A stretch of 27,771 bases of DNA from a virus. The stretch spans positions 1 to 27,771 of the IMG/VR virus record IMGVR_UViG_3300037189_012894; one strand, given 5' to 3'. The translations under genes were made by a program, and so were the position numbers. Below the pieces are notes generated by a model. The model worked only from the letters and a program-made list of their open reading frames with translations, was not told the DNA's origin and did not search any database. Numbering within the stretch: position 1 is the stretch's first letter; each line of letters begins with the position of its first letter. Below are positions 16,122 through 19,745 of this stretch, piece after piece.

Positions 16122-16146
16122 ACCCCAAATATAGGGGTATTTTTTT
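16120..16146 (+). terminator. Terminator of the late plus-strand operon
   Basis: ATACCCC (16120-16126) and GGGGTAT (16134-16140) form a 7-bp stem with a 7-base loop. A run of T to 16146 follows. It ends the head and fibre operon about 130 bases after the adaptor gene. The same bases hold the -7 box and part of the start codon of the minus-strand 44-residue gene. Confidence 0.7.
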
Positions 16147-16157
16147 ATCGTATCAAA
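16126..16157 (-). promoter_or_regulatory. Bacteroidota-type promoter for the 44-residue gene
   Basis: Read on the minus strand: TTTG (16157-16154), 20 bases, then TATATTTG (16133-16126). This is an exact match to the -33/-7 pattern TTTG and TAnnTTTG. The start codon begins four bases further on. Confidence 0.65.
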
Positions 16158-17084: not shown

Positions 17085-17411
17085 TTAAAGATTATGTTTA
17101 GTTAAAAATTGCTGCCAGATTGGTAATTCCCCTGGCCCAGTTTTGTAGCCAAGCTTTTCCAGCAGTGTTTTTGTTTGCTCGTAGTCGTCTTCGGTAATTG
17201 GTTGAAGTTTCAGGTATTCCATTTCTGGGTCGCTTTCCTCGTTCTTTTTGTAGTGCAATTTGCACTTGTAGGTAATCCCGAAAGGTGTGTCCTTGCTTCG
17301 GTAGAACTCGGTTTCAAGTTTGTAGTCCATACACTGCGAGCAAAAATAAGTCCAGCCGGATGAAGTCATCATTCTGCGGTTCTGGTATTTTTGCATGTTT
17401 GGTGTTCCCAT
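17085..17411 (-). CDS. Small zinc-finger-like protein A, first gene of the minus operon
   Basis: The product has 108 residues. ATG 17411 was chosen because a promoter (TTTG at 17448-17445, TATATTTA at 17424-17417) ends five bases before it. A longer frame from 17462 would begin inside that promoter. The N-terminal part has 'YFCSQC', then 'TPFGITYKC' with His nearby (KLHYKK), so a C2-C-H metal site is likely. The C-terminus LLEKLGYKTGPGELPIWQQF, then LTKHNL, is shared with protein C. It may bind DNA or RNA. Proteins of this kind occur in early regions of Bacteroidota phages, but no exact family can be named. Confidence 0.68.
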   Translation of the reverse strand: MGTPNMQKYQNRRMMTSSGWTYFCSQCMDYKLETEFYRSKDTPFGITYKCKLHYKKNEESDPEMEYLKLQPITEDDYEQTKTLLEKLGYKTGPGELPIWQQFLTKHNL

Positions 17412-17416
17412 ATAAA

Positions 17417-17448
17417 TAAATATACGACAAATACAAAAAAATATCAAA
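17417..17448 (-). promoter_or_regulatory. Promoter of the minus-strand operon
   Basis: On the minus strand: TTTG (17448-17445), 20 bases, TATATTTA (17424-17417). This differs from TAnnTTTG only in the last base. ATG follows after five bases, so the message would have almost no leader. Confidence 0.6.
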
Positions 17449-17490: not shown

Positions 17491-17514
17491 GTTTTCAATT
17501 TTGTCGTATATTTA
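17484..17514 (+). promoter_or_regulatory. Promoter of the plus-strand early operon
   Basis: TTTG at 17484-17487, 19 bases, TATATTTA at 17507-17514. The A-rich 21-base leader leads to ATG 17536. The -7 region is in the 15-bp inverted repeat shared with the minus promoter. Confidence 0.6.
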
Positions 17515-18407: not shown

Positions 18408-18581
18408 ATGGAACCAAAAAAAAATGTATCACGCATCCTGGACTACGAATTCCTGGGTATTTTCCGTCCTGACCAAAATCCAGAAGTGGAGTTTCTTTAC
18501 TACCAACTGATGATGGAGGACGATACTGAAGGACTATGTTTTTTCCCATTCAAGGAATGCCATTTTAATTTGGTGGATTAA
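18408..18581 (+). CDS. Small early protein of 57 residues, acidic
   Basis: ATG 18408 follows a run of A. The product starts MEPKKNVSRILDYEFLGIFR and continues with PDQNPEVEFLYYQLMMEDDT and EGLCFFPFKECHFNLVD. The C-terminal half is acidic, with two Cys and several Phe. No family is recognised. Support comes from the promoter upstream, the A-rich leader and coding-like codon use. The last codons overlap the -33 box of the next promoter, which suggests tight packing rather than a chance frame. Confidence 0.5.
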   Translation: MEPKKNVSRILDYEFLGIFRPDQNPEVEFLYYQLMMEDDTEGLCFFPFKECHFNLVD

Positions 18582-18600
18582 AAAACTTATTGTATCTTTG
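18569..18600 (+). promoter_or_regulatory. Full-consensus promoter before a near-leaderless gene
   Basis: TTTG (18569-18572), 20 bases, TATCTTTG (18593-18600). This matches TTTG and TAnnTTTG exactly. The ATG at 18605 comes after only four bases, so the transcript would begin at or next to the start codon. Confidence 0.7.
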
Positions 18601-18604
18601 ACCT

Positions 18605-18778
18605 ATGAAAAAGAAAAACTTCCACATCGTGCGATACTACCGCGGCAGCAAATGTATCTTTGCAACCAACATTACCAAAAAGCAAGCTCGACAATACAGC
18701 AATTTTATTGACGACGCCTATATGAACGATGGCGGTGGCATTACAGTTTGGTACCGTATGAACCTTGAAATCCAATAA
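18605..18778 (+). CDS. Small basic protein of 57 residues
   Basis: ATG 18605 to TAA 18778. The product begins MKKKNFHIVRYYRGSKCIFA and then TNITKKQARQYSNFIDDAYM, and ends in NDGGGITVWYRMNLEIQ. Ten Lys/Arg against four Asp/Glu make it basic. The middle looks helical and may bind nucleic acid. It has its own near-perfect promoter and no room for a leader. It is followed after four bases by the next gene. No known family is recognised. Confidence 0.55.
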   Translation: MKKKNFHIVRYYRGSKCIFATNITKKQARQYSNFIDDAYMNDGGGITVWYRMNLEIQ

Positions 18779-19440: not shown

Positions 19441-19471
19441 TTGTCTTACTCCTAAAAATTGCCTATATTTA
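19441..19471 (+). promoter_or_regulatory. Promoter of the terminase and tail operon
   Basis: TTG (19441-19443), 20 bases, TATATTTA (19464-19471). A 22-base A-rich leader leads to ATG 19494. It follows two terminators directly, so this operon would be controlled apart from the early genes. Confidence 0.55.
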
Positions 19472-19493: not shown

Positions 19494-19745
19494 ATGGGCT
19501 GTAATTGCAAAGGCGGAAAAGCGCAAGTCATCAATAACCTTCAAAGCGAAGACCATATCCTTATGGCACGCGAAATAAAAGAACGTATCATTGACCAGAA
19601 AGCCCCTGGTATGTTTGATGAGATTGAAACCCGTGAAGTCATTGGTGCATTCCATTTACTATACCCAAACGCCAAGATTACTCCCACGATTGAAAACGCA
19701 ATTCACAACATCAATCACGCAATACAAAATTACAGAAAACGATGA
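19494..19745 (+). CDS. Small Cys-x-Cys protein before terminase
   Basis: The product has 83 residues and starts MGCNCKGGKAQ. Short 'MGCNCGG' type proteins are common in Bacteroidota phage structural clusters. The two cysteines could bind a metal or link to the virion. The remainder is helical with 'NNLQSEDHILMAREIKERII' and ends in HAIQNYRKR. It is the first gene after the promoter and overlaps the terminase small subunit by four bases (ATGA). It has no known enzyme motif and the role is open. Confidence 0.65.
   Translation: MGCNCKGGKAQVINNLQSEDHILMAREIKERIIDQKAPGMFDEIETREVIGAFHLLYPNAKITPTIENAIHNINHAIQNYRKR

Follow-up and report, generated by a model that had tools for sequence, protein, structure and literature searches.

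How can a gene be read when its promoter ends only four or five bases before the start codon? This question is raised by three genes, here called P1, P2 and P3, in a viral genome of 27,771 bases (IMG/VR virus record, G000), which was analysed over its whole length and is referred to below as the window. The genome is AT-rich and contains tape measure, portal and large terminase genes. Named phages searched with the window DNA and the P2 protein gave no match, and the portal alone matched, its best named-phage match being Nonlabens phage P12024S/L (26% identity). Because of this similarity and of the promoter type described below, the host of this small phage is probably a member of the Bacteroidota. 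The GTDB contigs searched contained no P2 relative, so integration of the phage is not indicated. Ribosomes of the Bacteroidota work without Shine-Dalgarno pairing, and to our knowledge the way in which phages of this group get their messages read has been little studied.

A sequence-only reading of the window had described Bacteroidota-type promoters that end four bases (18605 and 16121) or five bases (17411) before the ATG. All three sites read in this way, and their boxes match those of sigma-ABfr, the primary sigma factor of the Bacteroidota. The -7 box of sigma-ABfr promoters, TAHHTTTG, is exact in P3 (TATCTTTG) and P1 (TATATTTG), and the P2 box (TATATTTA) deviates from it at the last base. 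All three genes also have a perfect -33 TTTG exactly 20 bp from the -7 box (Table 1), within the spacing of approximately 19-21 bp of sigma-ABfr promoters; this element was absent from the earlier description and is less constant among relatives of P2. The window's TTTG-N20-TATMTTTR-N4/5-ATG sites are exactly the three named genes, and the pattern TTTG-N19-21-TATMTTTR-N4-5-ATG, present three times in the window, has a mean count of zero in 100 dinucleotide shuffles. An extended -33 element similar to TTTGGYRGATTAAAA is found in the window at 18569-18583 and in related loci (L018 4110, L025 4571 and others, L016, L019). Many promoters of the phage family carry a -33 element of this kind, often together with a stereotyped stretch of 22-25 nt, like taagacacttaacaactaaagac, before the ATG.

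Table 1. Coordinates of the promoters, genes and repeats discussed in the text (positions in the window unless a related locus is named).
Feature	Position	Strand	Remarks
P3 -33 box TTTG	18569..18572	+	first bases of TTTGGTGGATTAAAA; overlaps last codons of ORF 18408-18581
P3 -7 box TATCTTTG	18593..18600	+	followed by acct (18601-18604) and ATG
P3 CDS, 57 aa	18605..18778	+	predicted transcript start 18604-18605 (from PMC6847099, PMC9723704)
P1 -33 box TTTG	16154..16157	-	N20 to -7 box
P1 -7 box TATATTTG	16126..16133	-	followed by gggt (16125-16122) and ATG
P1 CDS, 44 aa	15987..16121	-	conserved start MGxQxKxYEKTIP; predicted transcript start 16121
P2 -33 box TTTG	17445..17448	-	N20 to -7 box
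P2 -7 box TATATTTA	17417..17424	-	followed by tttat (17416-17412) and ATG
P2 CDS, 108 aa, CxxC...CxxH zinc-binding-like	17085..17411	-	heads leftward gene group 17411 to 15987
-7 box TATATTTA, leadered contrast gene	17507..17514	+	21 nt to ATG 17536
-7 box TATATTTA, leadered contrast gene	19464..19471	+	22 nt to ATG 19494
Weaker -7 box, leadered gene	18385		15 nt to ATG 18408
Inverted repeat, left arm, perfect 15 bp	17417..17431		over P2 -7 box
Inverted repeat, right arm, perfect 15 bp	17500..17514		over -7 box of divergent neighbour
P2 / divergent RHH-like ATGs in relatives	L005 4470/4527; L006 8594/8651; L009 11911/11968; L033 1968		

Transcription in F. johnsoniae starts 4-5 nt past the -7 box (PMC6847099), and in F. 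psychrophilum this box spans -12 to -5 (PMC9723704); the earlier statement that Bacteroidota transcripts start approximately 4-5 nt after the -7 box agrees with both studies. Given this published distance, the messages of the three genes should begin at the AUG, with a leader of 0-2 nt. At the 4 nt spacing of P1 and P3 the A of the ATG is the predicted +1, and at the 5 nt spacing of P2 in the window the predicted +1 is either this A or the base before it. Many relatives of P2 have a spacing of 6-7 nt, where the leader is more likely to be 1-3 nt long; as an A replaces the near-invariant G at the end of the P2 box and the spacing varies from N5 to N7, such a leader is likely in many members. 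We infer the exact 5' ends of the P1, P2 and P3 messages from these distances.

The placing of a promoter with its predicted +1 at the start codon is both above chance and conserved. Homologues of the three proteins align from Met1 with about 36-61% identity, which supports all three reading frames as genes. Relatives of P2 were found in approximately 25 IMG/VR contigs (about 50-62% identity over most of the length), those of P1 in approximately 15 IMG/VR contigs and those of P3 in two contigs. A scan of related phages for the same spacing had been proposed as a check, and the distance from box to ATG is indeed kept for all three genes. For P1, 15 distinct upstream regions were compared, including that of the window. 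In 12 of them TATATTT(G/T) is separated from the conserved ATG by exactly 4 nt; one of the others has a degenerate box and two are leadered. Among 22 distinct homologues of P2, TATATTTA is found 5-7 nt before the ATG in 13 and with one mismatch in five more, and the remaining four have no promoter there and are placed after another coding sequence. P3 has TATCTTTG-acc(t/c)-ATG in both of its distinct versions, the relative (L006/L051) carrying TATCTTTG-accc-ATG. Relative to the window, seven relatives of P1 preserve 10-12 of the 12 box positions but only 6-12 of the 20 positions in the spacer. Most of the evidence for conservation in the family is contributed by P1, P2 and a divergent gene of ribbon-helix-helix (RHH) type described below, P3 having only one independent homologue. 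As the arrangement is kept in distant relatives, it looks real.

As regards function, a Pfam search placed none of P1, P2 and P3 above the cut-off, with merely weak zinc, endonuclease VII and Lar-like matches for P2. The structure model of P2 (pLDDT 77, pTM 0.39) gave no significant match in a fold comparison, the model of P3 was poor, and none of the matches found for the three proteins points to a repressor. An ATGGGA start (codon 2 GGA) is near-constant in P1 and P2 and is absent from the four promoterless P2 homologues. We considered it as a signal specific to leaderless genes and rejected it: there are near-leaderless genes that start with ATGAAA, and the leadered gene at 19494 (g19494) starts with ATGGG, so that family descent is the simpler reading.

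Leadered promoters had also been claimed for the same genome, and they are found at 17507, 19464 and 18385, 15-22 nt before the ATG. In order to compare the two arrangements, distinct promoters with a TTG -33 element were counted across the family loci by their distance to an ATG-opened ORF. The spacing is bimodal: of 97 distinct promoters, 38 have 3-7 nt between the -7 box and the ATG, two have 8-12 nt and 57 have 13-35 nt, and a reversed-motif control is flat. At genes with a conserved start the -7 motif occurs 32 times at N4-6, against a mean of 3.6 and a maximum of 9 in 100 shuffles, although this count is dominated by few families. The 97 promoters belong to 55 protein families, eight of them only near-leaderless, 42 only leadered and five mixed or other; the mixed set includes the P1, P2 and RHH families, which are mostly near-leaderless. 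Start contexts differ as well, with a purine at -3 in 89% of leadered starts and a T at -1 in 76% of near-leaderless ones, the latter as predicted for transcripts whose first base is the A of the ATG. All 32 near-leaderless ORFs of at least 60 aa start with ATG and none with GTG or TTG, whereas 28 of 141 leadered sites have a non-ATG start, a contrast weakened by the fact that some of these non-ATG sites are due to chance.

With leadered and near-leaderless messages predicted from the same phage, two leader classes coexist. The suggestion that two translation modes may be in use holds to the extent that there are two leader-length classes with different start contexts. The association with small genes has to be abandoned, because families that are only near-leaderless (60-413 aa) and those that are leadered (45-402 aa) overlap in length and size does not separate them. 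One gene, g19494 (MGCNCK...), is leadered in the window, 22 nt after its -7 box, and near-leaderless in L015 (4546, 5 nt). The -7 boxes of P2 and of its divergent neighbour are covered in the window by the arms of an inverted repeat (TAAATATACGACAAA / TTTGTCGTATATTTA) that is absent from the other family loci compared.

A short motif in an AT-rich genome invites the explanation that the sites are chance matches. The pattern appeared in none of the 100 shuffles, the reversed-motif controls are flat and conservation across relatives refutes it, so we regard chance as negligible. It could also be argued that the promoters are real and the true starts lie further in, behind ordinary leaders; P2 has a further in-frame ATG at 17396, preceded by a short A-rich stretch, and a start there would give a leader of 15 nt. 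This internal Met is not conserved, however, and homologues align from the first Met, with MG at residues 1-2 near-invariant in P2 and invariant in P1; P3 is without an internal ATG ahead of its conserved residues. Internal start codons were rejected on these alignments from Met1, and we consider them very unlikely.

A further possibility is that expression of the genes depends mainly on read-through from upstream promoters, the ATG-proximal box being minor and its closeness a product of genome compaction. Intergenic gaps are short, P1 is the last of a leftward gene group, and P3 comes after ORF 18408-18581, whose end its -33 box overlaps. As both genes lie downstream of co-directional genes, read-through is probable for them, and leadered messages of P1 and P3 probably also exist. 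Read-through cannot supply P2, however, which is the first gene of its group. With compaction alone, the 8-12 nt class would not be nearly empty (2 of 97) beside a pile-up at 4-6 nt, and this explanation is further disfavoured by boxes that are conserved though the spacer between them has diverged. Overall, expression mainly by read-through seems unlikely, and the reading in which the near-leaderless promoters serve these genes is preferred.

In four relatives (L005, L006, L009 and L033) the ATG of P2 lies 56 bp from that of a divergent 54-aa gene resembling ribbon-helix-helix repressors; the Pfam 56B_RHH cut-off is passed by the homologue in L018 and not by those in L005 and L006. Both divergent starts are near-leaderless in the loci checked (L005, L006 and L009), and the two promoters take their -33 TTG from one dyad, TTGAC-N5-GTCAA (in L005, TTGAA-N5-GTCAA), TTGACNNNNNGTCAA being the dyad common to the two. 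This layout suggests that the RHH gene and P2 may form an autoregulated switch. At the corresponding place beside P2, the window has no RHH-like gene. It is rather doubtful that leaderless translation is, in the phages of this family, a dedicated second mode for chosen regulatory and early genes, including the 56-bp RHH/P2 switch on the TTGACNNNNNGTCAA dyad. A 413-aa TET-associated glycosyltransferase-like gene is also near-leaderless in relatives (L006 10199, Pfam TAGT, E 6e-38; L017 4360), hinting at DNA base modification in these phages.

The distribution of the layout was assessed in viral and bacterial genomes. Among the IMG/VR matches listed, TTTG-N19-21-TATMTTTG-N4-ATG opened an ORF of at least 40 aa at 105 of 132 sites (80%), against 17 of 79 (22%) for an N11 control, the two spacings being compared by the fraction that opens ORFs. 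One viral contig of 106.8 kb (L205, IMGVR_UViG_3300042451_001197) has six TTTG-N-TATCTTTG-N4-ATG sites in 5 kb. In eight named Bacteroidota phages we found two near-leaderless sites, each at the start of an annotated CDS, as compared with approximately 18 leadered ones; frequent use is thus no general feature. Across 60 Cellulophaga-family genomes the strict pattern was counted 23 times and its reversed control gave roughly 12, which makes about half of the count background; in the 28-kb window phage it occurs twice, or three times if TATATTTA is allowed. Within Bacteroidota chromosomes (L055-L132), the N4 layout recurs at starts that resemble those of Fur, GntR and TetR regulators and of RsmI. 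The mode is thus widespread, but its use at high frequency appears to be a property of the window's phage family.

Our proposal is that host RNA polymerase with sigma-ABfr would recognise TTTG-N20-TATMTTTR and start the RNA on, or within approximately 2 bases of, the A of the ATG. Such a message would have no leader and thus no A-rich Kozak-like context, and by analogy with lambda cI its translation would probably fall to ribosomes able to recognise an AUG at the very 5' end. Binding of 70S ribosomes to a 5'-terminal AUG is the main route for leaderless messages (PMC9031893), and we infer the same route for these phage messages by analogy. The same phage would also make ordinary messages with leaders of approximately 15-20 nt. 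Taken together, we assign a probability of roughly 0.8 to the reading in which P1, P2 and P3 are true near-leaderless units in a phage that probably infects Bacteroidota, with sigma-ABfr-directed starts at the AUG, probable 70S-type reading and two leader classes. Having both classes on one promoter type, and genes like g19494, provides natural pairs for asking what the leader does in Bacteroidota cells. For annotation, an ATG that follows a TAHHTTTG box at a distance of 4-6 nt gains support as the start codon.

Both in Bacteroidota and in phages, leaderless messages have been described before. They make up 5.5% of mRNAs in F. psychrophilum (PMC9723704), 13% of those F. johnsoniae transcripts that have a probable promoter carry leaders of 10 nt or less (PMC6847099), and approximately 3.7% of 5' UTRs in Bacteroides thetaiotaomicron are shorter than 10 nt. 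Against this background of about 4-13%, what stands out is the unusually high share in one phage family; the literature searched contained no description of such genes in phages of Bacteroidota. The genes described here share promoter type and TSS geometry with the leaderless mRNAs of these three species, which are bacterial and mapped by RNA-seq, whereas the phage family is known from sequence alone and has 38 of 97 promoters near-leaderless. They also resemble the near-leaderless chromosomal regulators, in which TTTG-N19-21-TATATTTG-N4-ATG recurs in orthologues, although the layout is rare there and those regulators (Fur-, GntR-, TetR-like, RsmI) were named by eye from N-terminal sequence. 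Among phages, the lambda cI message from PRM is a leaderless repressor message. As in lambda cI, a phage gene has its predicted transcript start at the AUG, and in relatives a repressor-like RHH gene shares the layout. In contrast to lambda cI, the sigma factor and promoter are different, the three genes of the window match no repressor, and the layout is common to several unrelated genes.
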